In this document: in pieces, positions 1 through 35,891 of the stretch
How positions within the stretch are numbered: the stretch's first letter is position 1
Layout: each line of letters starts with the position of its first letter
Source: Pseudomonadota bacterium
GTDB taxonomy: Bacteria > Pseudomonadota > Alphaproteobacteria > JAGOMX01
Length of the DNA stretch: 35,891 nucleotides
Assembly (NCBI GenBank): GCA_039714795.1
Contig: JBDLIP010000006.1
Coordinates: forward strand, 1 to 35,891
Reading direction: 5' to 3'
Program-made: the position numbers and the translations under genes
The notes under the pieces: model-generated
The model's input: only the letters and a program-made list of their open reading frames with translations
Told to the model about the DNA's origin: nothing
Databases searched by the model: none

Positions 1-99
1 GAGGATATTGAAACCGCGAAAAATACATCCGAAAAAAATATCATCGTTGTAACTCCATCTTTCGAAGAAAGTTATGTGTGGAGAGTCTTTGATGGAGAA
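1..99. repeat. Direct terminal repeat, left copy
   Basis: These 99 bases are identical to 35793-35891. The reading frame at the right end continues in phase through this copy to the stop at 306. A repeat of exactly 99 bases lying inside a gene is what an assembler with an odd k-mer leaves when it closes a circular or circularly permuted molecule. It is therefore more likely an assembly overlap than a biological T7-like terminal repeat. Confidence 0.95.
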
Positions 100-1788: not shown

Positions 1789-2630
1789 CCCAAAACAATG
1801 AAAATATCAAAATTGTTGATGAAGGAAATCTTCGTCAATATCGCACAGAAATCCCTAACATCGTTGAAGAGTATCTTTCTGACCCTTATGAGTTTAGAGT
1901 GTATTGTCATCTCAAAAGAAGGGCGGGAGATTCTGGTGCATGTACTGAATCCAGATCGAAAATGGCAAAAAAATGTGGAATGGGGATTGAAAAACTTCGC
2001 AAAGTTCTAATTTCGCTCTCCATGCTAAATCCAAAATTCGAAAATCTTCCCCTCATCATGATCAACAAAAGAAAAACTGAAAAGGGTGATCCTGACACGG
2101 ATTTTATAACCATAATCGACCTTTGGAATATAAACTTTAAAATTCATTTTAGTCCCCCACCAGAAAGTGGAGGGGTACCCCATGAGACGGGGGAGGGTAC
2201 CCCACGAGATGGGGGAGGGGTCCCCCACGAGGTGGGGGTGAAGAAAGAACCTTTTAAAGAAGATAAGAAAGAAAAAGAACAAAAAGAAAGAAAGAAGAAA
2301 GGCCGAAAAAATGGCGCAAAAGCGCCGTGTGTGTCTCAAAATCCTTCATCTTTTCCTCAAAAATCTTCATTTGGATCCGATGGAAAAGTCAAAATGACCG
2401 AGGTCGAATACAACAAACTTTTCACCGAATGGGGGAAGGGAAACCTCGAAGACCTTGTCGAGCAGCTCAACGACTACATCGGCTCTTCCGGCAAGCGATA
2501 CAAATCCCACTACCACACCCTGCGCCAGTGGCACAGAAAGAGGTCTCAGGAGAAACCTGACCCTCGAGACAGAAGAACGAAAAACGTAGACGGAACAGCC
2601 GTCGATAGCCCAGTGGATGGATTGTTTTGA
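1785..2630 (+). CDS. Phage replication initiator (lambda O / DnaT-like organisation)
   Basis: The 281-residue protein starts at ATG 1785 behind GGGGAGG. Residues about 30-80 form a winged-helix/HTH domain typical of phage replisome organisers (LSDPYEFRVYCHLKRR, then KMAKKCGMGIEKLRKVL). Residues 125-152 are a Gly/Pro linker encoded by palindromic DNA repeats, and 152-178 are a lysine-rich tract. Residues 204-255 form a C-terminal domain ending in KSHYHTLRQWHRK, common in phage initiators that recruit a helicase loader. The next gene, overlapping by one base, is that loader. The likely role is to bind the origin inside its own gene and bring in the host DnaB helicase. The 3' third is visibly richer in GC than the 5' part. 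Confidence 0.85.
   Translation: MTQNNENIKIVDEGNLRQYRTEIPNIVEEYLSDPYEFRVYCHLKRRAGDSGACTESRSKMAKKCGMGIEKLRKVLISLSMLNPKFENLPLIMINKRKTEKGDPDTDFITIIDLWNINFKIHFSPPPESGGVPHETGEGTPRDGGGVPHEVGVKKEPFKEDKKEKEQKERKKKGRKNGAKAPCVSQNPSSFPQKSSFGSDGKVKMTEVEYNKLFTEWGKGNLEDLVEQLNDYIGSSGKRYKSHYHTLRQWHRKRSQEKPDPRDRRTKNVDGTAVDSPVDGLF
2153..2305. other. Candidate replication origin: palindromic iterons plus purine-rich tract
   Basis: Three near-identical tandem units lie at 2174-2195, 2196-2217 and 2218-2240, each with CCCC/GGGG arms around a GAG centre; the last is CCCCCACGAGGTGGGGG. A decayed unit precedes them from 2153. Units are 22, 22 and 23 bases, not multiples of three, so the encoded peptide changes frame between units (GVPHETG, GTPRDG, GVPHEVG) while the DNA pattern holds. 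A strand-asymmetric A/G tract follows to about 2305. Iterons then an asymmetric purine-rich stretch within an initiator gene is the plan of the lambda origin in gene O. Confidence 0.6.
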
Positions 2631-3148
2631 TGGAAAAATTAGCAGACTGCCACCAGTCACAAGAAATCTTGCAAGTTCTGAGGGATTTTGCAGCGCATCC
2701 CAGAGGATTCTTGCTCATGGCCGGGAGTAACGGGACAGGGAAAACATACGCCTCGAAGGCTGTAGGGAGAGAGTGTAGGATTTCACAACCGTACAGTTCT
2801 GAATTTCCCGGGAAGATTTTCGTCAAGCAGGCAAATCTCAACACGCGCCTCAACGAGTATCGTTCGATGTGGGGAAATGTTCGATATCTTGAGAAATATT
2901 ACGCTCATCCTGAGCTTTTGATCATCGACGATCTCGGCACGCGAACACCCTCAGAAGCCTTCATGGACTTCCTGTACGTCCTCGTCGACGATCGTTACGA
3001 CAACAGGCATCGAAAGGGGACGATCATCACCACAAACTTGACAGCCTCACAAATGAGGGAAAGATTTGGCGATGCTTTCACGAGCCGAGCTGCTTCTGGA
3101 AAATTGCTTCGCATGGATGGAGATGATCGTAGGTTTGAGGAATTTTGA
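2630..3148 (+). CDS. DnaC-like AAA+ helicase loader
   Basis: The start is ATG 2630, overlapping the initiator's stop as TGATG; a TTG at 2627 is also in frame. The 172-residue product has a Walker A motif GSNGTGKT (residues 32-39), Walker B LLIIDD (96-101), a sensor-1 TTN (134-136) and an SR pair near 152 as probable arginine finger. These mark the DnaC/DnaI/IstB group of AAA+ ATPases, which load replicative helicase onto DNA. It is short for DnaC (about 245 residues) because there is almost no N-terminal helicase-binding domain, so it may contact helicase differently or rely on the initiator. Codon choice is more GC-rich than in most of the genome. Confidence 0.88.
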   Translation: MEKLADCHQSQEILQVLRDFAAHPRGFLLMAGSNGTGKTYASKAVGRECRISQPYSSEFPGKIFVKQANLNTRLNEYRSMWGNVRYLEKYYAHPELLIIDDLGTRTPSEAFMDFLYVLVDDRYDNRHRKGTIITTNLTASQMRERFGDAFTSRAASGKLLRMDGDDRRFEEF

Positions 3149-3345
3149 AGAAATTTAAAAGCGACAAAGATTACGTAAATTACTTATATTCAGAGAGAAA
3201 TCATCTCGATAAGGCTTGGAATCAAATGCTCGAGCAAGTAGAATTATCAGGAAATCTTGATCGACTGGTAGCCGGTTTCCTGATGACTCGATATCAGGTC
3301 CTCGACAAAGAAATAATCAAACGAACTTATTTTAAAGCCCACTAA
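3145..3345 (+). CDS. Unknown 66-residue protein coupled to the helicase loader
   Basis: The start is TTG 3145, overlapping the loader's TGA, with GAGG just upstream, so translational coupling is likely. The 66-residue product is helical and charged (KSDKDYVNYLYSERNHLDKA) with no recognised domain. Its place at the end of the replication pair suggests an accessory replication or regulatory role, without direct evidence. Confidence 0.6.
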   Translation: MKKFKSDKDYVNYLYSERNHLDKAWNQMLEQVELSGNLDRLVAGFLMTRYQVLDKEIIKRTYFKAH

Positions 3346-3437
3346 GCCCTCTAAAATTTTAGACTAGACTCTTACCATTAAGAAGCTATAAAGTCCTCTT
3401 AGATCGCATTTAAACGCTATTGACGAGGATATAATTA

Positions 3438-3752
3438 ATGCAATTCAAACACAAGTTCCATGCTAAGCCCACAAACATCGACGGAATACGCTTTGCCTCA
3501 AAGCTTGAGGCTCGCTACTACTCCAAGCTCAAGGCCTTTCAGGAAGCAGGAGAGCTGGTTTTCTTCCTGCGCCAAGCTCCTTTCCACCTTCCAGGCAACA
3601 CCCGCTATGTCGTGGACTTTGTGGAGTTCTGGAAAAATGGCGATATTACTTTTACAGATTGTAAAGGATTAGAAACAGAAGTTTACAAACTTAAAAAAAG
3701 ACAAGTTGAAGAGTTGTTTCCAATAAAAATTAACGTTGTAAAGAAAGCTTGA
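3438..3752 (+). CDS. DUF1064 family PD-(D/E)XK nuclease
   Basis: The 104-residue protein begins at ATG 3438, behind GAGG. It matches the DUF1064 pattern: SKLEARYYSKL with Glu24, YVVDF with Asp60, and TDCKG with Asp74 and Lys76, followed by YKLKKR. Together these form the metal-binding site of the PD-(D/E)XK nuclease fold, related to T7 endonuclease I-like resolvases. In phages such genes lie near replication genes and probably resolve branched DNA before packaging. The length and all key residues look intact. The 5' half is rich in GC and the last third AT-rich, hinting at mosaic origin. Confidence 0.8.
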   Translation: MQFKHKFHAKPTNIDGIRFASKLEARYYSKLKAFQEAGELVFFLRQAPFHLPGNTRYVVDFVEFWKNGDITFTDCKGLETEVYKLKKRQVEELFPIKINVVKKA

Positions 3753-3816
3753 AAAGTTTGTTGAACAAAGAAACTATTCAATAGTAATATATATAAAATC
3801 ACCCTTAAGTACGATC

Positions 3817-4059
3817 TTGAGAGCTATTGAATTAAAAGATTCGATTCCAAAGAATGACGATATGATTGAAGAACACGCGATCACTATTCATGGAGAGATC
3901 AATCTTGATGATCTTGAGTACCTAGCCAAGAAAGCTAATAGGATTGGCCGGAACGGCCGTAGTCTGATTGGCGTAAAGATCGAACGCAAGGATGATAAGC
4001 GCGAGGTATTCTTTGTCGTGGATGAAATGGTTTCCAAGCACAATTATTGCCCTTACTAG
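3817..4059 (+). CDS. Unknown small protein
   Basis: The frame is open from TTG 3817; ATG 3862 gives a shorter 65-residue version starting MIEEHAITIHGEINLDDLEY. Neither start has a convincing ribosome binding site. The sequence has alternating beta strands and a helix (GRSLIGVKIERKDDKREVFFVVDEM), suggesting a compact globular protein, but no family is recognised. It stands alone between the nuclease gene and the promoter of the AbrB-Doc pair. Confidence 0.5.
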   Translation: MRAIELKDSIPKNDDMIEEHAITIHGEINLDDLEYLAKKANRIGRNGRSLIGVKIERKDDKREVFFVVDEMVSKHNYCPY

Positions 4060-4161: not shown

Positions 4162-4195
4162 TTAAGCCCATATTATGGATGAAGGGAGAAATGAA

Positions 4196-4423
4196 ATGAA
4201 AAAACTGGCTCGATTTGGTAATAGCTATGCTATTCCTATAGATAAGAGGGTTTTGAAAGAAGCCCATTTAAATGAAAATGCTAAATTTAATATTCAAGTA
4301 TTGCCTGGTGGCGGTTTGTTGATTCAGTCAGTCGAGGAAGTTGACCGAAAAAAGATGGAAGATCAGCAAAACAAAATTTACTCGAAATACAAGAATCTAT
4401 TTAAACGATTGGCGGACTCATGA
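4196..4423 (+). CDS. AbrB/MazE-like antitoxin
   Basis: The 75-residue protein starts at ATG 4196, preceded by AAGGGAG; an upstream in-frame ATG at 4175 is less likely. The N-terminal half, KKLARFGNSYAIPIDKRVL followed by FNIQVLPGGGLLIQSVEE, is the swapped-hairpin AbrB/SpoVT/MazE DNA-binding domain. The C-terminal half is a charged helix that would wrap the toxin. Its stop overlaps the Doc toxin start by four bases (ATGA). Known members bind their own promoter and neutralise the partner; the operator-like repeat at 4141-4161 fits this. Confidence 0.8.
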   Translation: MKKLARFGNSYAIPIDKRVLKEAHLNENAKFNIQVLPGGGLLIQSVEEVDRKKMEDQQNKIYSKYKNLFKRLADS

Positions 4424-4830
4424 AATATTTAAGGATCGAGGAAGTCATTTCTTATCAAGATTTCCTTATCAAAAAGGATGGAGGGTTCGGGGGCATTAGA
4501 GATTTTGGTTTGTTATCTTCCGCCCTTGCTATTCCTTCACAATCTTTCTCAGGGCAAGAAATGCACCACACCGTGATAGAGAAAGCAAGCGCTTACCTAT
4601 ACCACCTGATCAAAAATCATCCTTTTTTTGACGGAAACAAACGTACAGCAGTATTTTGTTTTCTAGTGTTTTTTGATGAAAACAACGTTGAAATATCTTT
4701 TGATGAAGATTTTTTGTACAGTATTACATTAGACGTTGCGGGAAATAAACTGCATAAAACAGAATTGATTTCTTTAATGAACCAATATTTTCAAACCAAC
4801 TGTGATAAATCCCTTTCTACTAGCAGTTGA
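4420..4830 (+). CDS. doc: Doc-type Fic-fold toxin
   Basis: The 136-residue protein carries the Fic/Doc signature HPFFDGNKRT at residues 67-76, with the catalytic His67 and the anion-binding GNKR. Length and single-domain layout match Doc, which in phage P1 phosphorylates elongation factor Tu and stabilises the plasmid prophage. Like P1 Doc it has no inhibitory helix of its own and relies on the antitoxin. Here the antitoxin is AbrB-like rather than Phd. It overlaps that gene by four bases, so the two are translated together. It probably serves maintenance or exclusion of rivals. Confidence 0.87.
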   Translation: MKYLRIEEVISYQDFLIKKDGGFGGIRDFGLLSSALAIPSQSFSGQEMHHTVIEKASAYLYHLIKNHPFFDGNKRTAVFCFLVFFDENNVEISFDEDFLYSITLDVAGNKLHKTELISLMNQYFQTNCDKSLSTSS

Positions 4831-4954: not shown

Positions 4955-5383
4955 ATGCCCGCATCCAAGGGAAATAAGAACACGCTAGGTAATACAGGCG
5001 GTAGACCTGAAACGTGGACTGAGAAAAGGATTAATAAAGAAGCTGATAGCTTTTTGAAGTGGGCTAATCAGGACGACTCCATTATCCTCAGAAAGTATGC
5101 TGCAATCAATGGATATGCGCCTCAATGGTTAACATATTTGGCTGATAAATCTGTTAGGTTTTCCGAAACTCTAAAGATCGCAAAAACACTCGTCGGGTGT
5201 AGGCGTGAAGAGCTAGCCCTAAAAGGCGATATAGATACTGGTATAGTCAAGGCCACCCTTGCCACCTATGACGAAGAGCATAGAGCTATGCTTAAAGAGA
5301 TGAAGCGTGCAGAGAAAGACAGCCAGCAACTGGAAGCTTTCTTGGCAGGCCAAAAATCACAAAAAGAATTATCACAGCAATAA
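4955..5383 (+). CDS. terS: Terminase small subunit (probable)
   Basis: The 142-residue protein starts at ATG 4955. The opening PASKGNKNTLGNTGGRP is typical of many phage small terminase subunits, followed by a helical region that could be a DNA-recognition HTH (residues about 45-80) and a charged helical C-terminal part suited to oligomerisation. Its place upstream of the large terminase agrees with this role: recognising the packaging site and stimulating the motor. A hairpin terminator follows. Assignment rests on the N-terminal pattern, size and context. Confidence 0.7.
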   Translation: MPASKGNKNTLGNTGGRPETWTEKRINKEADSFLKWANQDDSIILRKYAAINGYAPQWLTYLADKSVRFSETLKIAKTLVGCRREELALKGDIDTGIVKATLATYDEEHRAMLKEMKRAEKDSQQLEAFLAGQKSQKELSQQ

Positions 5384-5422
5384 TGGGGTTTTCCCAATCC
5401 ATTTCCCTATTTTTCCACTCCA

Positions 5423-5450
5423 AGCCCGTGAAAGCGGGCTCTTTTATCTT
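5423..5450 (+). terminator. Intrinsic terminator after the small terminase gene
   Basis: AGCCCG (5423-5428) and CGGGCT (5435-5440) form a six-pair GC-rich stem with a TGAAAG loop, followed by CTTTTATCTT. On the plus strand this is a good rho-independent terminator. It lies where plus-strand transcription meets the end of the opposite-strand HicAB-like pair. Read on the minus strand it lacks a T-run. Confidence 0.75.
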
Positions 5451-5896
5451 ATACCTTCTCTCAACACTTTTTTAAGTTGATTGGGGCGTTCAATTTCACT
5501 GTGAACTTGTAAAAATCCCTTCAAGACTCTCACAAGAGCTAGATTTTCATTATCCTTCAACCAAAAAGCCACATCTTCAGGAGCATATATTCTTTGTTTA
5601 GGCTCCTTTTTTGTTCCTGTTGGACGGCCAGAACCCGGCCTGTAGCCCCCTCGACCTGTTGTTTTATTCTCCATTATAGGAGAAAGATTTCTGTTCAATC
5701 TATGCTTGATGAACTCTTTGATATATTTAGGGTAATTTTCTATGACTTCTTCTTTAGAATCACCCGCATATTCAACAGGGTATTTTTCATGAGAAAACAC
5801 CCACGCCTCAACGCATTCATCATACCAAGGTTTAATGTTACCGACTTCTCGAAGGGCAACATTTAAATTTTCATCTATTTCTTTTTTGGCGGCCAT
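5444..5896 (-). CDS. HicB-like antitoxin / DNA-binding protein
   Basis: The best start is ATG 5896, with GAGG six bases upstream; an in-frame TTG at 5902 is also open. The 150-residue protein has a HicB-like N-terminal domain in which YPVEYAGDSKEEVIENYPKY occupies the place of the family's 'GDTLEEA' segment. A basic linker with GGYRPGSGRPTGTKKEPKQ follows, then a helical C-terminal region that probably binds DNA. It overlaps the upstream HicA-like gene by 22 bases, in the usual toxin-first order. Its expected role is to bind the partner and repress the shared promoter. The family call is an inference. Confidence 0.6.
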   Translation of the reverse strand: MAAKKEIDENLNVALREVGNIKPWYDECVEAWVFSHEKYPVEYAGDSKEEVIENYPKYIKEFIKHRLNRNLSPIMENKTTGRGGYRPGSGRPTGTKKEPKQRIYAPEDVAFWLKDNENLALVRVLKGFLQVHSEIERPNQLKKVLREGIR

Positions 5897-6111
5897 AACC
5901 AACCTCTCTCTTTAACTAAGTTTTCTGTTTTCTTAACACTGTGTGCAGAAACCTCATGCTTTTTTCCGTTTCCATGGACAATTTTTATACAGCATAGAAA
6001 ATTGTCGTTTTCATCGCACAAATTCCAGTCTATAGATCCCTTTTTCAGTTTCCAGTCACACTTCTTGATGTGTTTTCTAAAATCAGATTCTTTTAAAGGC
6101 TTGTGGGGCAT
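5875..6111 (-). CDS. HicA-like toxin with a changed active site
   Basis: The 78-residue protein starts at ATG 6111; AAAGGA lies upstream. It aligns by eye with HicA mRNA interferases, small double-stranded-RNA-binding-like proteins: WKLKKGSIDWNL corresponds to the strand with the catalytic 'GSHH', and KKHEVSAHSVKKTENLVKER to the last strand and helix. In place of the catalytic histidine it has Ile-Asp (residues 27-28). Two other histidines, in HGNGKKH, might compensate. It may be an inactive, retained partner or a related protein with another function. Gene order and overlap with the HicB-like gene support the pair. Confidence 0.5.
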   Translation of the reverse strand: MPHKPLKESDFRKHIKKCDWKLKKGSIDWNLCDENDNFLCCIKIVHGNGKKHEVSAHSVKKTENLVKERGWLWPPKKK

Positions 6112-6131
6112 TCATGGTTCCTTTAATCATT

Positions 6132-6293: not shown

Positions 6294-7019
6294 ATGTCAC
6301 ACAATTTTTTGGATGTTATAGAAATCTACGCCAAAGATAACCCTAAGTTATTAGATAAGTCATGGCGCTTGTCTAAAGAATCGGGGTTCTACTGGATAAA
6401 GGGAAAAGACGGGAGGCCCGTTGTTTTTCAACCCAATTGGGCTCAAGAGATATTGCTTAACGAATCGCATCCTTTAAAGATTATTCCCAAGAGCCGACAG
6501 CTTGGAATTACGACATTTTACGCTATCAATTACTTAGATGACTGCATTTTCTCACCAACACCGATAGACACGACTTTTATAGCAGACCGACGAGAGAATG
6601 CAGAACTTATCTTTGAAAACAAAATCCGCTTTGCTTGGGAACGTGTCCCTGATTACATCCGCGCGCTTAACCCTGCCTCTAAAGAGTCAACCCGTATGCT
6701 TAGATGGGGGAATGGTAGTAGCTACGTTGTAGATACAGCCCCTCGTGGTGGCACATTCCAGCGCCTTCATGTCTCAGAGTTTGGCAAGATATGCGCCAGG
6801 TATCCACAGAAGGCACAGGAGATCATTGAGGGGGCTTTAGAGACTGTCGCTGTTGGTCAGCAGATCACTATTGAGTCAACGTCTGAAGGGCGGGGAGGAT
6901 ACTTTTTTGACATGTGCAAGCAAGCGGAAGAATTAAAGAATTCCGGTGAGAAGCTGGGACTTCTAGATTACAAACTTTTCTTTTTTCCTTGGTGGAAGGA
7001 GCCAACGTATACGCTATGA
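6294..7019 (+). CDS. terL: Terminase large subunit, ATPase half (split gene)
   Basis: The 241 residues form the N-terminal motor domain of a phage packaging terminase. KSRQLGITT (residues 66-74) is the Walker A-like loop, LHVSEFGK (158-165) the Walker B region with catalytic Glu162, and ESTSEG (194-199) the coupling motif. The frame ends after LFFFPWWKEPTYTL, exactly where intact terminases continue into the nuclease domain, which here resumes at 7551. The two parts sum to about 507 residues, the normal full length. The domain drives ATP-powered DNA translocation at the portal. The halves may work as separate chains, or the intervening DNA may be removed at RNA level. Confidence 0.85.
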   Translation: MSHNFLDVIEIYAKDNPKLLDKSWRLSKESGFYWIKGKDGRPVVFQPNWAQEILLNESHPLKIIPKSRQLGITTFYAINYLDDCIFSPTPIDTTFIADRRENAELIFENKIRFAWERVPDYIRALNPASKESTRMLRWGNGSSYVVDTAPRGGTFQRLHVSEFGKICARYPQKAQEIIEGALETVAVGQQITIESTSEGRGGYFFDMCKQAEELKNSGEKLGLLDYKLFFFPWWKEPTYTL

Positions 7020-7045
7020 AATACAAAAAATTAAGGAGGATAAGC

Positions 7046-7459
7046 GTGGAAGCTGAAAACAAGGATGCTAAGGATTTGAAAGAAACAGACAGTCAGACTG
7101 ATGAAGAACAGAAAAAACCAAGAACTGTAATCCATATTGAGTTGATCAAGCAGATGGTAAAGGATAACAAGGCTTTTCTTACGCACATGCAACAGATTTC
7201 TGATAGAAAAAGCCAACATTTAGAAAAAAATATTCTTAAGCTTGAAAAGTCTCTTAACAGGTATGAGAAGACACTCAAAGAAATCCAAGCTCGTCATGAA
7301 ATAGTTGAAGACACTCTCTGCAACGTCTTACTTGCCATACGACAAAATGAATATTTACAAGCCTGGTATCCCGAGCAAAAGGGTTATCCTGCTCAAAAGG
7401 TTGTGGGACAGCACCCCTTTGTTAAGAAAAGGGGTAAGAGTGAAAAAGCACTACAGTGA
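7046..7459 (+). CDS. Coiled-coil protein inserted between the terminase halves
   Basis: The start is GTG 7046, preceded five bases earlier by a strong AAGGAGGA; the frame is open upstream but without another good start. The 137-residue product is highly charged. Residues about 25-100 are predominantly helical with heptad-like spacing (LEKNILKLEKSLNRYEKTLK), indicating a coiled coil. The C-terminus is basic. There is no homing-endonuclease, intein or reverse-transcriptase motif, which argues against a classical invasive element. Its stop lies inside the next small membrane-protein gene. Function unknown. Confidence 0.7.
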   Translation: MEAENKDAKDLKETDSQTDEEQKKPRTVIHIELIKQMVKDNKAFLTHMQQISDRKSQHLEKNILKLEKSLNRYEKTLKEIQARHEIVEDTLCNVLLAIRQNEYLQAWYPEQKGYPAQKVVGQHPFVKKRGKSEKALQ

Positions 7460-7547
7460 GTATTTTCTTATGTCTGCTTTAGGTTTAACGCTGATTTTTG
7501 GTTTTTCCATGATCATATGGTTTTGGAAAGTGGTAATTTTTGGGTGA
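7440..7547 (+). CDS. 35-residue single-span membrane peptide
   Basis: GTG 7440, with AGGGG nearby upstream, opens a 35-codon frame encoding a short polar start (MKKHYSEYF) and one strong membrane helix, roughly residues 10-28, then VVIFG. It overlaps the coiled-coil gene by 20 bases, and its TGA (7545-7547) is just before the start of the nuclease half of the terminase. This tight packing suggests a real coupled gene. A small holin- or pinholin-like role is possible because no other lysis gene is visible, but nothing in the sequence proves it. Confidence 0.5.
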   Translation: MKKHYSEYFLMSALGLTLIFGFSMIIWFWKVVIFG

Positions 7548-7550
7548 TTG

Positions 7551-8351
7551 ATGACTGATTACGACAAATACTTTGCATCTCTTGGAAGCGACCACGGAAT
7601 CAAGCTCGATGATGGTCAAAAGGCTTGGTACATTAAAAAAGCTGACACTCTCAAGGATGGGATGAAGACACAATACCCCTCAACGCTTGACGAGTGTTGG
7701 GAGGTTGCCAATGACGGCCTATGGTATGGCAAGTCCATCTCTAGAGCACGCACAGAGAAGCGTATTTGCAATGTTATCTATGACCGCATGGCAGAGGTGC
7801 ACACAGCTTGGGATCTTGGTAGACGCGATCCTACAGCCATTTGGTTCTTTCAATTGGTACAAAAGGAAGTACGCCTCATTGACTACTACGAGAATAACTT
7901 TGAGAACATAAGCCACTATGTGAAGATCCTACAGGATAAGAGTTACATATACGGTAAACACTTTGTGCCGCATGATGCGGCGATCAAGTCATTTCAGACG
8001 GGTAAGTCTTTAGTAGACTTTGCAAGAGACCTTGGGATTACACTCATTAAACTCGATCGTGAGGTGGATATTTTACCTGCCACAAATTACGTGCGTTCGA
8101 TGCTAGACCGCTGCTGGTTTGATGAGAAAAAGTGCGCTCAAGGGATCAAGGCATTAGAGGCATACCGCAAAGAATGGTCGGATAAGAATCAGTGCTTTGT
8201 AGAGCGTGAATTACATGACTGGGCATCGCATGGATCATCAGCGTTTAGGTACTTGGCTAGAGCTGAACAGATAATTGCTGGTGGTCCGTCAAAGGATGAA
8301 GTAAAAGCCCATCTTGAAAGGATGGATAGATATAGAAGGGAGAGGATTTGA
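7551..8351 (+). CDS. terL: Terminase large subunit, nuclease half (split gene)
   Basis: ATG 7551 (or the TTG just before it) starts 266 residues carrying the C-terminal RNase H-like nuclease domain of a large terminase. TAWDLGRRDPTAIW contains Asp88 and Asp93, HFVPHDA contains Asp142 and LHDWASHGSSAFRYLA contains Asp223, a plausible metal-binding acidic set. The first 60 residues match the segment that normally follows the ATPase domain (HGIKLDDGQKAWYIKK and YPSTLDECWE). A stop in the same frame at 7545-7547 closes it off from the upstream half. It would cut concatemeric DNA during packaging. Confidence 0.83.
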   Translation: MTDYDKYFASLGSDHGIKLDDGQKAWYIKKADTLKDGMKTQYPSTLDECWEVANDGLWYGKSISRARTEKRICNVIYDRMAEVHTAWDLGRRDPTAIWFFQLVQKEVRLIDYYENNFENISHYVKILQDKSYIYGKHFVPHDAAIKSFQTGKSLVDFARDLGITLIKLDREVDILPATNYVRSMLDRCWFDEKKCAQGIKALEAYRKEWSDKNQCFVERELHDWASHGSSAFRYLARAEQIIAGGPSKDEVKAHLERMDRYRRERI

Positions 8352-8354
8352 GTA

Positions 8355-8585
8355 ATGACTGATTGGATAAAAGTAGGGGATAAATTACCCGAAATTGGAA
8401 AAAAGGTGCTTGTAAGGGTGGTTGTTGATGGTGGACCTAAATATTTCGAAGATAGACTTGTTAAATTTGTAAGAACATCACAATCAAATTGGTCACAATC
8501 AACTTGGTCACAAGCGATTGATTCAGGTGTTACACATTGGATTGAACTACCTCAGGGCTGTCCAACATGTGGGTGTTTAGAATGA
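8355..8585 (+). CDS. DUF551-like protein
   Basis: The 76-residue protein starts at ATG 8355 behind GAGAGGA, four bases after the terminase stop. The opening MTDWIKVGDKLPEIGKKVLV and the VTHWIELP near the end are the hallmarks of the DUF551 family, common in phages and of unknown function. A short repeat, QSNWSQSTWSQ, sits in the middle. It ends with CPTCGC, which could hold a metal. The stop overlaps the next start as ATGA. Confidence 0.75.
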   Translation: MTDWIKVGDKLPEIGKKVLVRVVVDGGPKYFEDRLVKFVRTSQSNWSQSTWSQAIDSGVTHWIELPQGCPTCGCLE

Positions 8586-9244: not shown

Positions 9245-9616
9245 ATGACTAAAAACACCCTGACTTTTAAACCGGACTGGGTCTCTCCTCCGGGAAACAC
9301 GATTTCAGATTTATTAGAAGAACTTGACTGGTCCCAAACAGAATTTGCCAAACGAATGGATTATACAACTAAACATGTCTACTTATTACTGCAAGGCGAA
9401 GCATCTATCACAGAAGACACTGCTCTTCGACTCGAAAAAACACTAGGAGGCAGTGCAGAATTCTGGATGACAAGGGAGCAGCATTACAAACAGGCATTGG
9501 CAGAAAAAGAAGAACTAATGAAACTTCAGGCAGATAAGCCGTGGCTTAAAGAACTTCCTATTCCATATCTTTTAGAACACAACCTAATAAAAAAACCTCA
9601 AATAAAAACCGATTGA
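9245..9616 (+). CDS. higA: HigA-family antitoxin without a partner toxin
   Basis: The 123-residue protein starts at ATG 9245. It has the standard HigA layout: PDWVSPPGNTISDLLEELDW, an XRE-type HTH (SQTEFAKRMDYTTKHVYLLLQ) at about residues 30-52, the EDTALRLEKTLGGSAEFWM signature, and a longer helical tail. HigA normally neutralises the RelE-like HigB toxin encoded next to it. The preceding gene is not HigB-like and the next gene is the portal, so this is an orphan. It could block host HigB, act as a stand-alone repressor, or be a remnant. Confidence 0.85.
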   Translation: MTKNTLTFKPDWVSPPGNTISDLLEELDWSQTEFAKRMDYTTKHVYLLLQGEASITEDTALRLEKTLGGSAEFWMTREQHYKQALAEKEELMKLQADKPWLKELPIPYLLEHNLIKKPQIKTD

Positions 9617-9647
9617 AATATCCTTTATAAATTCATACACTACATTT

Positions 9648-9712
9648 TTTAGCATGCTTTAGCATGCGCCGTCGGGCTGATCACCCTAACATTGCCGTTC
9701 CAATGGCGGCGC
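9648..9712 (+). ncRNA. Possible structured RNA upstream of the portal gene
   Basis: A tandem pair of TTTAGCATGC (9648-9657, 9658-9667) leads into a foldable segment. GCGCCG (9666-9671) can pair with CGGCGC (9707-9712), enclosing a short GGG-CTGATCA-CCC arm (9674-9686) and a CATTG/CAATG arm (9690-9705). Together they draw a small three-way junction. It is far more GC-rich than its surroundings. It could be a leader, RNA-processing or packaging-related element. This is visual folding only. Confidence 0.4.
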
Positions 9713-9773
9713 TGTCCTTTTCTGACCGGAGAAAAGTTAACACTTACTCACGGATGAAAGGAAAGCGCCAAGG

Positions 9774-11867
9774 ATGGCAGATTTTGCTTCCATTGAAACA
9801 GATTATGAAGAGTTCTGGCAAAGGGCTGAAAGAAGCTGGGTTAACTATACATCCAACGCTTTAAAATCCCTGCAAGCCTATACCGGCCGTACATGGACCT
9901 CCAAAGAAATATCTAAATTACATGAGGAAGGAAGAGAGGCCAGCGAATATAACCTTATTCGTTCAAGCGTCAATTTCTTTTCCGGTTATGCAAGAGACAA
10001 TATTAAATCCTGTGTCATTGCTCCAATGGAAGGTTCGGATGAAAAAACAGCCGATCAACTTAACACTGTCGTAAAATACGTCTTTGATAAAGGCGATGGT
10101 GATCAATATCTACTCAGCGGCTTTGATGATGCGCTAAAAACAGGGCTATCCCTTGTCGGCATCTGGATTGATAAGTCAGAAGATCCTGTATTCGGTGATA
10201 TCAAGTTTTTTAAGCGCTCATACAATTCATTTATCTTAGATCCAAACTTTACCAGACTTGATTTATCGGATTGCTCTGAGGCTTCTTTGCGTGATTTTGT
10301 AACGCGTGATGATGCAAAGTCACTGCTTACATTCATTGATCCCAAAATCATTGATGAAACTCCCACTGCAACCTTTGATAATAAATTCCAACTCTATCGC
10401 CCGAATAAAAACCGCTTTGATTCTGACGACTTAATCACCTATGACAGCTACTACAGGCGCACGACTAGAGATATTCAAGAGATAGTAGATATGTCCACCG
10501 GTGACATTCTCTTGCGTAATGGTGATCCTTCTGAAAATGATAAACATGATGAATTAGTTCAACTTGCCAGATCAAACGGTATCAATGCTGAAATTCTAAG
10601 ACGCAATAAGCAGTTTGTTGAGCTTAACGTCTTACTAGGCGGTAAAGTCGTCTACAACGGTCCTGATCCCACAGGCTTGGACACCTATCCCTTCATCGCA
10701 GAGATTGCATGTTTTGAGCCCCAACTTGATGATTTTAGTCTCAAGATACAGGGTTTAGTGCAACCGTTGATACCGGCCCAACGCTCCTTCAACAGACGCC
10801 TGTTAAGAGCGCAAGATATCATGGATTCATCTCTCAATGTTGGCATGCTCTACAAAGTTGGCTCTGTTGTCGATGAAAAAGCCATGAACCGCTCAGGGAT
10901 TGGTAATATTCCAGCTACTGACACAGCTGATCTTGACCGTGACTTCAAGCCTATACAAGGGGGTTCTATTCCTCCGGGCTGGCTTGAGTTCTCTCAAACA
11001 ATCAGCGGTCTTTTCGCTGAAATCTCCGGTGTTAATGAAACTCTTTTAGGCTCTGATGAAGGTGGAAACACACAAGTATCAGGAAGGCTTGCAGAGGTAA
11101 GAGCTGCCAATGGACTGCGTGCTAACCGTGCTATCTTTGACAATTTCGAAAGATCACAGCGTCACCTGACTAAAAAAGCTCTCGAAGCTGTTCAATTGAA
11201 TTTCGGCCCCGGAAAAGTGGCTCGTATTATCGGTGAAGAGCCCACGCAACAGTTTAATGATGAATCTTTTGAAAGGTTTGATGCGGTCATCAAGCAGGGT
11301 GTTAAATCCCAGTCTCAGCGTGATGCTTTCTATTTTGAACTGCTCCGTGCTGTTGAAATGTTTGGCCCTGAAAAGATACCTGTAGATCTGATCATTGAAG
11401 AGATGCCGATGGTCGGTCATTCCGAGTTAAGAGAGCGCATTCAGCAGATTAATGAAGAGCAAAAACAGCAAGAACAGCAACAAAAGCAACAAGAGCTTGA
11501 GCTAATACAAACACAAAAAGCTCTCATAGATTCTCAAATTAAATTGAATGAGTCGTCAGCAGGTGAAAAAGACGGAAGACAGTTATCTAACATTGGACTT
11601 CTAAGAGAAAGAGAGTCTGAACAGGTTCAAAACATTGCTCAAGCGAATCTTGATCGTGCCAAAACACTAGCTGAAATACAGAATCTTAAAACGGCAAACA
11701 TTCAGCAACTCATGAGTTTCCTGCAGTTTTTAAAACAGCAAGAAGAGCAGGAAAGACAGGAATTAATTTCTGAAGACTTTTCGATCGCTGAATCATTAGA
11801 CAGATCGAGCGATATTAATTCCTTATCAAATTTACCCCTTAATCCAATAAATCAAGGAGGACAGTAA
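9774..11867 (+). CDS. Portal protein (P22-type)
   Basis: The 697-residue protein starts at ATG 9774. Size, domain order and motifs such as NLIRSSVNFFSGYARDN, the central IPAQRSFNRRLLRAQDIMDS segment, and SGVNETLLGSDEGGNTQVSG fit the P22-like portal family of short-tailed phages. The C-terminal part (about 560-670) is a long glutamine- and glutamate-rich coiled coil, matching the barrel helix of P22 portal. Twelve copies would form the ring at one capsid vertex through which the terminase pumps DNA. The next gene starts at its last base (TAATG). Confidence 0.88.
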   Translation: MADFASIETDYEEFWQRAERSWVNYTSNALKSLQAYTGRTWTSKEISKLHEEGREASEYNLIRSSVNFFSGYARDNIKSCVIAPMEGSDEKTADQLNTVVKYVFDKGDGDQYLLSGFDDALKTGLSLVGIWIDKSEDPVFGDIKFFKRSYNSFILDPNFTRLDLSDCSEASLRDFVTRDDAKSLLTFIDPKIIDETPTATFDNKFQLYRPNKNRFDSDDLITYDSYYRRTTRDIQEIVDMSTGDILLRNGDPSENDKHDELVQLARSNGINAEILRRNKQFVELNVLLGGKVVYNGPDPTGLDTYPFIAEIACFEPQLDDFSLKIQGLVQPLIPAQRSFNRRLLRAQDIMDSSLNVGMLYKVGSVVDEKAMNRSGIGNIPATDTADLDRDFKPIQGGSIPPGWLEFSQTISGLFAEISGVNETLLGSDEGGNTQVSGRLAEVRAANGLRANRAIFDNFERSQRHLTKKALEAVQLNFGPGKVARIIGEEPTQQFNDESFERFDAVIKQGVKSQSQRDAFYFELLRAVEMFGPEKIPVDLIIEEMPMVGHSELRERIQQINEEQKQQEQQQKQQELELIQTQKALIDSQIKLNESSAGEKDGRQLSNIGLLRERESEQVQNIAQANLDRAKTLAEIQNLKTANIQQLMSFLQFLKQQEEQERQELISEDFSIAESLDRSSDINSLSNLPLNPINQGGQ

Positions 11868-31754: not shown

Positions 31755-31833
31755 GATTAAGCACAACACAAAAGTTATCACTTGATCTAAAAAAGAAACA
31801 ATTGATACATTGATACGTTGCAGGAGACATAAA

Positions 31834-32034
31834 ATGAATCTAAGAGAATGGTTATTCCATAACCGTATCACAGTTACACAACTAGCAAAAGACCTCGGAA
31901 TTTCAAGAACCCATCTAAATCTTATTTCAAGTGGACAAAGACGTCCAAGTCCAGATCTGGCTAAAAGGATTGAAGAAATAACTAAAAATGGGGTAACCAA
32001 AGCAGAACTGCTTTTCCCTGAAGATTTTGAGTGA
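31834..32034 (+). CDS. Cro-like HTH regulator, array member 1
   Basis: The start is ATG 31834 with CAGGAGA upstream. The 66-residue protein has the XRE/Cro HTH (VTQLAKDLGISRTHLNLISS) at residues about 14-33, then RRPSPDLAKRIEEIT and the ending ELLFPEDFE. It consists of the DNA-binding domain alone. It has the same length and fold as the proteins at 32619, 32992 and 33380. Divergent to the recombination operon, it most likely represses one or both transcripts through the palindrome at 31739. Confidence 0.8.
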   Translation: MNLREWLFHNRITVTQLAKDLGISRTHLNLISSGQRRPSPDLAKRIEEITKNGVTKAELLFPEDFE

Positions 32035-32037
32035 TCC

Positions 32038-32283
32038 TTACTCATAGTCTCCTCCTGATTCATAATAAGCTTCAAACTTAGATTCCATTTCTAAAGCGCA
32101 TTCGGTGCATATCAGATTATCAACATATTTGTTGTAAGCAACATCTTCCTTATCCAGGTGACACTCCTGACATGCATATCTTTCCACATAACACTCAAAG
32201 CAAAGCCCTTCAGTAGGACTATCCTTAGATGGGTGGTATTCGCTTTTGTCGTGATAGTTTTCACAGTGTGAGCATCTAAACAT
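32038..32283 (-). CDS. Four-CxxC zinc-ribbon protein
   Basis: ATG 32283 has GGGAGG upstream and is preferred over 32310, which would run into the neighbouring gene. The 81-residue protein has CxxC pairs at residues 4/7, 28/31, 38/41 and 59/62, enough for two zinc sites. No catalytic motif is seen; a nucleic-acid or protein adaptor role is typical of such small ribbons. Its end lies three bases from the end of the HTH gene at 31834. A broken copy of its C-terminus exists at 32823. Confidence 0.65.
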   Translation of the reverse strand: MFRCSHCENYHDKSEYHPSKDSPTEGLCFECYVERYACQECHLDKEDVAYNKYVDNLICTECALEMESKFEAYYESGGDYE

Positions 32284-32296
32284 GTTTTTTCCTCCC

Positions 32297-32491
32297 TTAC
32301 TCTGATTCATTTTCTAGGTACCAGTCATCAATAGCTTGTTTAGCTTCTTCAAGGCTTTCAGCTGTACCATATCTATAATCTTCGGCATCTGGAGCCCCGT
32401 CATAGCCGTCAATTGCATATTCCCAGTCAATACATCTCATTGCAATTGGCTTGTGGTCGCAGCTAATGTGAAAGTCTCTGTAAGTTATCAT
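32297..32491 (-). CDS. Unknown 64-residue protein
   Basis: ATG 32491 follows AAGGAG. The sequence begins MITYRDFHISCDHKPIAMRC and then has an acidic segment with YGTAESLEEAKQAIDDWYLE. The beta-hairpin plus 'TAxSLEEAKxxID' helix is a frequent layout in small phage proteins of unknown function. It is transcribed leftward into the zinc-ribbon gene, from the gap that also contains operator 2. Confidence 0.6.
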   Translation of the reverse strand: MITYRDFHISCDHKPIAMRCIDWEYAIDGYDGAPDAEDYRYGTAESLEEAKQAIDDWYLENESE

Positions 32492-32526
32492 GGTGAACTC
32501 CTTTTCTTAATTTGTTTGACCCAATC

Positions 32527-32538
32527 TAACACATGTTT
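32527..32538. promoter_or_regulatory. Operator 2
   Basis: TAACACATGTTT matches the TAACAYAYGTTW core of the other two sites with weaker symmetry and starts 92 bases before the HTH gene at 32619. It overlaps the first arm of a second inverted pair, TGTTTGA (32534-32540) and TCAAACA (from 32548). It lies between divergent genes. Confidence 0.5.
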
Positions 32539-32566
32539 GATTAAAATGTCAAACAAGATCTAATAC

Positions 32567-32596
32567 TTGACGAAAAAAATAAACAATTGATAGAAT
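32567..32596 (+). promoter_or_regulatory. Promoter of HTH array member 2
   Basis: TTGACG (32567-32572) and TAGAAT (32591-32596), 18 bases apart, form a plausible sigma-70 promoter. The repeated AACAATTGATA (32582-32592) covers the spacer and start of the -10 box. The equivalent positions before members 1 and 3 are TTGATC/TACATT and TTGATA/TAACAT with the same 18-base spacing. Confidence 0.45.
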
Positions 32597-32618
32597 ATTT
32601 CCAAAAAAAGAGATCTTT

Positions 32619-32819
32619 ATGGAATTAAGAGAATGGTTATTTAGAAACAGAAAAACAGTCACGGACTTCGCAAAGGAAATAGGCGTTTCCAGATCTCATT
32701 TGAACATGATTTCAAATGGTAAAAATTTACCAAGTGTTCAATTAGCAAAAAAAATAGAAGAAGGGACAGAGGGCAAAGTGACCATCATGGAACTGCTTTT
32801 CCCTGAAAGGTTTGAGTAA
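32619..32819 (+). CDS. Cro-like HTH regulator, array member 2
   Basis: The 66-residue protein starts at ATG 32619. It is closely related to the one at 31834: ELREWLFRNRKTVTDFAKEI, then GVSRSHLNMISNGK and MELLFPERFE. Differences in the recognition helix (SRSHLNMIS against SRTHLNLIS) are conservative, but the following loop changes from RRPSPD to NLPSVQ. Its end is three bases from a remnant of the zinc-ribbon gene, the same spacing as in member 1, showing that the whole block was duplicated. Confidence 0.8.
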   Translation: MELREWLFRNRKTVTDFAKEIGVSRSHLNMISNGKNLPSVQLAKKIEEGTEGKVTIMELLFPERFE

Positions 32820-32822
32820 TCC

Positions 32823-32879
32823 TTACACATTGTCGTCTCCTGACTTATAATAGGCTTCAAACTTAGATTCCATTTCTAA
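32823..32879 (-). pseudogene. C-terminal remnant of a duplicated zinc-ribbon gene
   Basis: The minus strand encodes LEMESKFEAYYKSGDDNV and a stop, matching the end of the zinc-ribbon protein at 32038 (LEMESKFEAYYESGGDYE). The rest of the gene is absent. Its distance of three bases from the HTH stop repeats the arrangement at 32034-32038. It is a scar of segmental duplication followed by deletion. Confidence 0.75.
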
Positions 32880-32895
32880 TTTGATATTCATCAGT

Positions 32896-32907
32896 TAACA
32901 TATGTTA
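32896..32907. promoter_or_regulatory. Operator 3
   Basis: TAACATATGTTA is a perfect 12-base palindrome starting 96 bases before ATG 32992. It is the most symmetrical of the three related sites and controls the long overlapping operon that starts with HTH member 3. Repeated AACAATTGATA lies at 32932-32942. Confidence 0.65.
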
Positions 32908-32991
32908 TCAAATATATGAAACCAGAAAAATAACAATTGATAAAAAAAAGAAACATTTGATAACATACAATTAACAAAATAAGGGGTTGTC

Positions 32992-33192
32992 ATGAATCTC
33001 AGAGAGTGGTTATTTAGAGAGAGAAAAACAGTCACAGAATTGGCCAAGAAAATAGTTGTGTCAAGAACCCACTTAAACCTTGTTTCTACTGGTAAAAAAC
33101 GACCCAGCCCAGACTTGGCTAAAAAGATTGAAGAAGCAACAAATGGTAAAGTAACTAGAGATGAACTACTTTTCCCGGAGGACTACGAATAA
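32992..33192 (+). CDS. Cro-like HTH regulator, array member 3, first gene of the long operon
   Basis: The 66-residue protein starts at ATG 32992 behind AAGGGG. It is again of the same family: NLREWLFRERKTVTELAKKI, VVSRTHLNLVSTGKKRPSPD and DELLFPEDYE. The usual glycine at the turn before the recognition helix (LGISRT) is valine here (IVVSRT), an odd change at a normally conserved turn. The stop shares a base with the next start (TAATG). It is the likely autoregulator of the operon that runs through the contig join. Confidence 0.8.
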   Translation: MNLREWLFRERKTVTELAKKIVVSRTHLNLVSTGKKRPSPDLAKKIEEATNGKVTRDELLFPEDYE

Positions 33193-33383
33193 TGGATACA
33201 GTATCTTTAATCACAATTATAGCTACAAATTTAGCAATTTTTGCTCTACTTAGCGGTCTAATGATATATCTTTTCACACGATTAGATAATGACCTTAACA
33301 AGATTTCATCAAGGCTCGACGGCCATGCATCGAGAATTGACCAAGCTTATGAGATAATCATTGATATGTTGAAGAAAAAATGA
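33192..33383 (+). CDS. Small membrane-anchored coiled-coil protein
   Basis: The 63-residue protein starts at ATG 33192, overlapping the HTH stop. Residues about 5-29 form one membrane helix (LITIIATNLAIFALLSGLMI and on), followed by an amphipathic charged helix (LDNDLNKISSRLDGHASRID). The shape is of a single-span anchor with a short cytoplasmic or periplasmic coiled coil. Function unknown. It overlaps the next HTH gene by four bases, so both are translated together. Confidence 0.7.
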   Translation: MDTVSLITIIATNLAIFALLSGLMIYLFTRLDNDLNKISSRLDGHASRIDQAYEIIIDMLKKK

Positions 33384-33580
33384 AACTAGATGAGTATCTT
33401 TTCAGAAATAAAATGTCGAAAACTCAGTTCGCTAAAAATCTTGGGGTCACAAGGACGTATATCCACGATATAATTGCAAAAAGGAGAACCCCTAGACCTA
33501 AGTTGGCTAGAAAAATAGAAGAGGTAGCAGAGGGGCAAGTGAAAAAAGAGCAGCTTATGTTTCCAGAGGATTACGAATGA
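33380..33580 (+). CDS. Cro-like HTH regulator, array member 4 (diverged)
   Basis: The 66-residue protein begins at ATG 33380 inside ATGA. It keeps the family frame (KLDEYLFRNKMSKTQFAKNL, GVTRTYIHDI, then ARKIEEVAEG and MFPEDYE) but its recognition helix (TRTYIHDIIAKRR) differs clearly from the other three. It thus probably reads another operator. Unlike the others it has no separate promoter or palindrome and lies within the overlapping operon. Confidence 0.75.
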   Translation: MKLDEYLFRNKMSKTQFAKNLGVTRTYIHDIIAKRRTPRPKLARKIEEVAEGQVKKEQLMFPEDYE

Positions 33581-35168: not shown

Positions 35169-35891
35169 ATGAATTCAAATCAGCAACAACACACCCAAGA
35201 CATGTCAAAATATTCACTAGAAATTTCATTTGAAGGCAGTGCTGTTGATGGAGAAATTGACGCTGAAGATCTAGTTCATTCCCTTATGGGAATAAATAGA
35301 GCTCTTTTTGAGGCAAATAAAATTTTAAATAAAGGTTACCACCCACTAAACATCAAAGTAAAATCGGGATTTAGACAGGGATCTTTCCAGTTAGATTTAG
35401 AAATTCTTCAGAGCTTCACTCAATGGGCAACAACGTTTTTATCAGACGAAAAAACTTACTCTGCTCAAGATATTGCAAAATTTATAGGCTTATCTTTAGA
35501 AAAGGCAGTTACCTTAATCAAGGTTTTATCGTGGCTCAAAGGTAAGATTTTCACCTGCAAAAAATCAAATTCTGGATCTTTTATACTTTCGTCTGATGAC
35601 AGAACCTTAGAGGTGTCTTATGAAGTTTTTGAACTTATGAATAGCAAGGATGTTAGGAAATCTATTGAAGCAATGGTCAGTCCATTAAAGAAAAAAGGTA
35701 TAGATAGTATCAAATATACAGATAAAAAAACTGGTAAATCAACTTCAATAACAAAAAACGATATTGCAGGATTAGAGTTGAAATTCTGTGAAGAGGATAT
35801 TGAAACCGCGAAAAATACATCCGAAAAAAATATCATCGTTGTAACTCCATCTTTCGAAGAAAGTTATGTGTGGAGAGTCTTTGATGGAGAA
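35169..35891 (+). CDS. N-terminal part of the 309-residue junction-spanning unknown protein
   Basis: ATG 35169, with AAGAGG upstream, starts a protein that continues in phase through the terminal repeat to 306. The first 70 residues (YSLEISFEGSAVDGEIDAED, LVHSLMGINRALFEANKIL, then KVKSGFRQGSFQLDLEI) form an alpha/beta domain similar to an uncharacterised domain found in phage and defence-island proteins, possibly the DUF7946 type. Residues about 95-125 could be a helical adaptor (YSAQDIAKFIGLSLEKAV). No nuclease or membrane motif is seen. It follows the two-span membrane protein by 25 bases and may act with it. Confidence 0.8.
   Translation, partial: MNSNQQQHTQDMSKYSLEISFEGSAVDGEIDAEDLVHSLMGINRALFEANKILNKGYHPLNIKVKSGFRQGSFQLDLEILQSFTQWATTFLSDEKTYSAQDIAKFIGLSLEKAVTLIKVLSWLKGKIFTCKKSNSGSFILSSDDRTLEVSYEVFELMNSKDVRKSIEAMVSPLKKKGIDSIKYTDKKTGKSTSITKNDIAGLELKFCEEDIETAKNTSEKNIIVVTPSFEESYVWRVFDGE
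35793..35891. repeat. Direct terminal repeat, right copy
   Basis: These 99 bases equal bases 1-99 exactly. Removing one copy gives a circle of 35,792 bases in which the junction gene is intact. Confidence 0.95.

Follow-up and report, generated by a model that had tools for sequence, protein, structure and literature searches.

A large terminase gene divided between two open reading frames, with accessory genes in the junction, in a P22-like phage

The packaging locus of a P22-like phage found in an assembly of the alphaproteobacterial lineage JAGOMX01 (GCA_039714795.1) raises the question of whether a large terminase (TerL) whose gene is divided between two separate open reading frames (ORFs) forms a motor of two chains, is an ordinary single chain produced by splicing, or is a gene in decay. 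The phage is represented by the 35,891-nt contig JBDLIP010000006.1, the whole of which was analyzed and is referred to here as the window. The split of TerL into two separate ORFs is confirmed, and these ORFs, with a coiled-coil gene and a 35-aa membrane peptide between them, occupy the positions given by the first-pass annotation of this DNA (Table 1). The best explanation, to which we assign a high probability, is that the TerL ORF underwent fission, that an accessory block presumably lodged in the junction afterwards, and that the motor would assemble from two chains in trans and be active in packaging.

Table 1. Coordinates of the packaging-region features and of the terminal repeat in the window.
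Feature	Position	Strand	Evidence
Terminal repeat	1..99 = 35793-35891	.	Exact 99-nt identity of the window ends
Probable small terminase (TerS), opens the packaging module	4955..5383	+	Weak GP3_package match; syntenic and 60% identical in the sister phage
TerL chain 1, ASCE ATPase core, 241 aa	6294..7019	+	PHROG terminase matches; alignment with unsplit TerLs; 80% identity to the sister phage
Coiled-coil gene	7046..7459	+	GTG 7046 with AAGGAGG ribosome-binding site; homologues in at least 17 viral contigs; AF2 model
Single-pass membrane peptide, 35 aa (GTG 7440 to TGA 7547)	7440..7547	+	Sister-phage homologue, L040:8744-8845
TerL chain 2, predicted helical lid subdomain (residues ~1-68) and RNase H nuclease, 266 aa	7551..8351	+	PHROG 2472; AF2 model; Foldseek
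DUF551 accessory gene, after the nuclease half	8355..8585	+	PF04448, E=2e-8; homologue within the sister-phage TerL gap, L040:8501-8743
P22-like portal, yardstick for selection and synteny	9774..11867	+	PF16510, E=5e-60; 78% identical in the sister phage

Since its first and last 99 bases are identical, the window represents a closed circular phage genome of ~35.8 kb, which carries full-length portal, capsid, tail, internal-virion, and replication genes. This complete genome was binned with its presumed alphaproteobacterium-like host and is not an integrated prophage in GCA_039714795.1, a draft assembly of 183 contigs. Examination of the host genome turned up a single further terminase, a GTA-type one on a separate contig (L039, 10747-12069), where it is apparently an orphan beside housekeeping genes. 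The whole stretch from TerS to the portal looks like a collector of accessory genes. Two antisense genes (5444-6111, minus strand) lie between TerS and TerL, where the sister phage described below has different antisense genes, and the packaging module is flanked by genes for a Doc-like toxin with a small partner and for a HigA-like antitoxin (4175-4830 and 9245-9616).

The first TerL ORF (ATG 6294 to TGA 7017-7019) retains the conserved KSRQLGITT P-loop, the LHVSEF motif with Walker B and the catalytic glutamate, and the ESTSEG coupling motif, and terminates after the FFFPWW strand; the second starts at ATG 7551 or, alternatively, at TTG 7548. Alignment of the two halves with nine unsplit TerLs of phage or metagenomic-contig origin revealed that they are complementary. 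Chain 1 ends after WWKEPTYTL and chain 2 resumes ~4-7 residues further on, with no other loss; a comparison with unsplit relatives had been proposed by the first-pass annotation to locate the insertion point. Its statement that the two lengths add up to a normal terminase holds as well (241 + 266 aa vs ~490-530 aa). The insert of 531 nt includes ~30 nt of non-coding DNA, and all four frames, i.e., those of the two halves, the coiled-coil gene, and the membrane peptide, abut or overlap. The better start of the coiled-coil gene is the GTG codon, preceded by an exact AAGGAGG match at 7033-7039, in agreement with the earlier description of this gene as well initiated; the alternative is an in-frame ATG at 7016, which overlaps the chain 1 stop as ATGA. 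The end of the gene (TGA 7459) is overlapped by the membrane-peptide ORF, and the stop codon of the latter is directly followed by TTG ATG (7548/7551). Joining of the halves by recoding of TGA as tryptophan is ruled out by an in-frame TAA at 7032-7034.

The position of the break among the TerL domains differs from the earlier proposal of a break in the inter-domain linker. The AF2 model of chain 2 (pLDDT 89.8) predicts helices at residues 2-15, 21-41, 46-56, and 58-68, and the first RNase H strand at residue 83. The closest solved structures found with this model by Foldseek were the D6E terminase and the nuclease domains of SPP1, G20c, and P22, and both model and search point to a C-terminal RNase H nuclease fold in chain 2. 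In D6E, the ATPase core is succeeded by the lid subdomain, a 12-residue linker (residues 230-241), and the nuclease, in that order (PMC5727402). The D6E lid residues 210-229 align with chain 2 residues ~47-66 in a statistically weak profile alignment that has the motifs in register. Because ~68 helical residues precede the RNase H fold, the break most likely follows the ATPase core and lies upstream of the lid. The split would thus part the ATPase core from the lid and nuclease, as suggested by structure prediction and the weak alignment, and closure of the ATP site by the lid would then need to happen in trans. A different break point in TerL is seen at residue 194-205, near which phrog_26724 and phrog_2472 meet (compared with window positions 6294-8351); this boundary suggests that further interrupted TerLs exist in databases.

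A TerL profile search of viral contigs detected one close relative of the window phage, the sister phage IMG/VR 3300017987_005481 (L040; the whole contig is L139 and L140), with ~80% amino acid identity and a gene order collinear with the window over almost the whole length. The break in its TerL coincides exactly with that in the window, and the gap between the ATPase half (5369-6118, 80% identical) and the nuclease half (9589-10389, 77% identical), which are in different frames, is ~3.47 kb long and holds ~10 genes. The coil homologue follows the ATPase half directly, the DUF551 gene and the membrane-peptide homologue come later, and the last position is taken by a small gene (9407-9592), the stop of which overlaps the nuclease start as ATGA. 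In L031, L013, and L102, homologues of this small gene lie upstream of the terminase genes. The window phage and L040 are the two phages in which insert-bearing split TerLs were found. Elsewhere in the window (31810-33580, plus strand), three ORFs of ~66 aa, at 31810, 32992, and 33380, constitute a small repeated gene family, and each of them matches one and the same sister-phage gene (34687-34887).

A third split phage, contig 3300017963_000507 (L031, L046, and L210), is identical over 10 kb to L211, a contig of another metagenome, and has the same break with no insert. The last residues of the ATPase ORF are STYSMESI, and its stop overlaps the start of the nuclease ORF in an ATGA; the coil gene of this phage lies ~5 kb upstream of TerL. 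Thus, the break occurs without an insert (L210), with an insert of 0.5 kb (window), and with one of 3.5 kb (L040). In these three phages the two TerL domains are encoded by separate ORFs and not as one polypeptide, and in 165 other fetched loci, some of them from shared contigs, both halves are in one open frame. No split was evident among the 60 matches listed when phage records were queried with an intact TerL. The TerL of the third phage, also split before the lid, contains in addition an intein-like insertion exactly at the P-loop (KARQIGS/CLDP...FVSHN/TTFW; L031 8753-10252, L210 4466-5974).

The window phage and L040 are grouped with full support on the phylogenetic trees, and their nearest relatives on the ATPase tree (L142, L143, and L145) are unsplit. 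When the window, L040, and L210 were held together, the AU test did not reject the topology (p 0.83 for the nuclease, 0.154 for the ATPase), and a single fission shared by L210 and the other two phages is neither rejected nor demonstrated by these tests. The window-related L142 was ruled out as a split TerL, as it is merely TGA-recoded. Its TerL and portal genes (105-1601 and 1845-3920) contain seven and three in-frame TGA codons, respectively, and form open frames only with TGA as Trp; L142 is probably a phage of a recoded host.

The coil protein represents an undescribed, terminase-adjacent family that is not covered by Pfam or PHROG; its members, found in 17 or more further viral contigs, share a C-terminal block, LLAIRQNEYLQAWYP, that hardly varies. 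Its AF2 model is one long helix (residues 6-107, ~100 residues), and a fold search with this model gave no meaningful match. In other phages the coil gene adjoins the terminase; it mostly precedes the TerS-TerL pair, and it comes immediately after TerL in L055 and L056. A short transmembrane ORF trails the coil gene in L030 and L031 as well, and thus the coil gene and the membrane peptide form a recurring pair. Pfam and PHROG scans of the insert genes in the window and L040 detected no homing endonuclease, intein, or reverse transcriptase, as the first-pass annotation had maintained for the window, and the repeats around the insert are short ones that are probably due to chance. Since its genes adjoin terminases in other phages, the content of the gap is of the accessory kind that commonly flanks the terminase, rather than a mobile element.

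The suggestion that the coil protein bridges the halves would be a stronger form of the two-chain explanation, in which this protein is a third motor subunit and the reason why the split is tolerated. Its gene comes right after the ATPase half in the window and L040 and is preceded by a strong ribosome-binding site, and both the single long helix of the model and the terminase-adjacent location of the family are consistent with such a role. However, the TerLs beside coil-family genes in other phages are intact and belong to at least three types, the gene is distant from TerL in the insert-free split phage, and its evolution is faster than that of the terminase halves (pN/pS 0.42 between the window and L040, a comparison in which synonymous sites are saturated or nearly so). 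As the family is normally found beside intact terminases, the coil protein does not seem to be a dedicated bridge; the bridging role is possible but not favored, and we regard it as unlikely.

Decay of TerL into a pseudogene, in a cryptic phage that has lost DNA packaging, could account for an insertion in an essential gene and for the replacement of the third nuclease carboxylate by serine. However, in the same comparison of the window with L040 (Nei-Gojobori method, with the same saturation), the ATPase half has a pN/pS of 0.195 and the nuclease half one of 0.220, compared with the portal (0.193) and the capsid (0.129). Both TerL halves are thus kept by purifying selection as strong as that on the portal, which is not expected for a disrupted gene that is being lost. 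In addition, the start/stop architecture is conserved, a second phage at ~78% identity is in the same state, and the genome is closed and circular with full-length structural genes. The first two nuclease aspartates are nearly invariant among the loci and intact in chain 2. The third carboxylate position is filled by Ser in both the window (SHGSSAF) and L040 (SHGASAF); over 185 loci, it is occupied by Asp (158), Lys (19), Ser (4), or Phe (1, in an intein-interrupted gene). About 20 other unsplit loci lack this carboxylate, including the nearest unsplit relatives, which have Lys. The change is therefore not a consequence of the split, and its interpretation as decay caused by the split is ruled out. 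Taken with these observations, the pseudogene explanation is improbable. At the same catalytic position, the nuclease end of TerL in L061 (SHG/CFTED) likely contains an intein.

Even less probable is a self-splicing intron of unusual content, from which an ordinary single-chain TerL would be produced, an alternative that the first-pass annotation had raised. TerL introns are known, for example, in Bastillevirinae (PMC11878797), and the length of the gap is divisible by three. Nevertheless, the proposed covariance search gave no match to group I or II intron models of Rfam even at E<=5; the ~30 nt of non-coding DNA are to be compared with 350 +/- 108 nt in known phage introns (PMC11878797); and the insert content differs between relatives, as the site holds ~10 genes in L040, where the frame changes too, and no insert in L210. 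Similarly, an intein is not indicated, as chain 1 terminates at 7019 and Pfam detects no Hint domain in the coil ORF. Finally, an assembly or binning artefact, conceivable for a host draft of 183 contigs, can be dismissed with near certainty, given that the contig closes into a circle, the same break is present in other contigs, and both junctions are tight start/stop overlaps.

The split TerL shows the features of genes in pieces: two complementary ORFs, conservation of both, and no detected splicing element. Another essential phage enzyme that exists as two chains, split by an inserted gene, is reportedly the ribonucleotide reductase NrdA-a/NrdA-b of Aeromonas phage Aeh1, in which a homing endonuclease makes up the insert. 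The insert in TerL is instead an accessory pair or block without an endonuclease; moreover, the enzyme here is a packaging motor, and one relative (L210) is split with no insert. For an enzyme divided in this manner, PMC8351571 refers to Friedrich et al. 2007 as evidence that the two chains are still functional.

An artificial split of T4 gp17 likewise places ATPase and nuclease on two chains. Cutting of gp17 at the linker leaves both activities intact and abolishes translocation (PMC3012670, PMC9958956), and a two-chain motor is therefore not expected a priori. In contrast to the T4 construct, the break described here probably falls one subdomain earlier, so that the lid stays with the nuclease, and it is natural and under selection. 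The TerL coding sequence is also interrupted in Bastillevirinae (PMC11878797) and in Campylobacter phage IBB_35 (PMC3322345), but these interruptions are introns or inteins, removed at the RNA or protein level, and none was found here. In HCMV, the ATPase and nuclease functions of the terminase were reported on separate subunits, pUL56 and pUL89 (PMC6897398); pUL89 itself, however, is a two-domain TerL homologue and not a fission product. No case of an unspliced two-chain TerL was found in a search of the open-access literature, and the TerL of the window is a new, testable variant of this protein.

That the motor works as two chains, one of the options left by the first-pass annotation, is very probable in view of the purifying selection on both halves and of the same break, with a larger insert, in L040. 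The probable origin of this arrangement would be ORF fission at the boundary between the ATPase core and the lid, a state seen without an insert in L210, after which terminase-neighboring accessory genes (the coil gene, the membrane peptide, and others) may have come into the gap. The two TerL chains would be translated separately from one polycistronic message, aided by the overlapping or abutting ORFs and their ribosome-binding sites, and would assemble non-covalently at the portal, where chain 2 would supply in trans the lid that closes the ATP pocket of chain 1. In the simplest view, the lid-nuclease chain docks on the ATPase core via the surface that is packed in intact TerLs, and hence the peptide bond would be dispensable at the break.

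The coupling of ATP hydrolysis to DNA movement in the terminase is debated, and the models center on the lid and the inter-domain hinge (PMC5727402, PMC9958956). We consider it likely that the split TerL is a working motor in which the lid, the "transmission" element, closes the ATP site in trans, and that continuity of the chain between core and lid is dispensable for translocation. If a natural motor stays split under selection, the peptide connection between core and lid would not be needed. The analysis reveals an undescribed protein family next to the terminase, and it suggests that ordinary accessory genes can come to occupy the interior of an essential phage gene with no homing element involved. 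The split TerL would thus provide a natural test of a packaging motor working in pieces and, if the two-chain explanation is true, separable chains that can be mixed, mutated, and timed independently.
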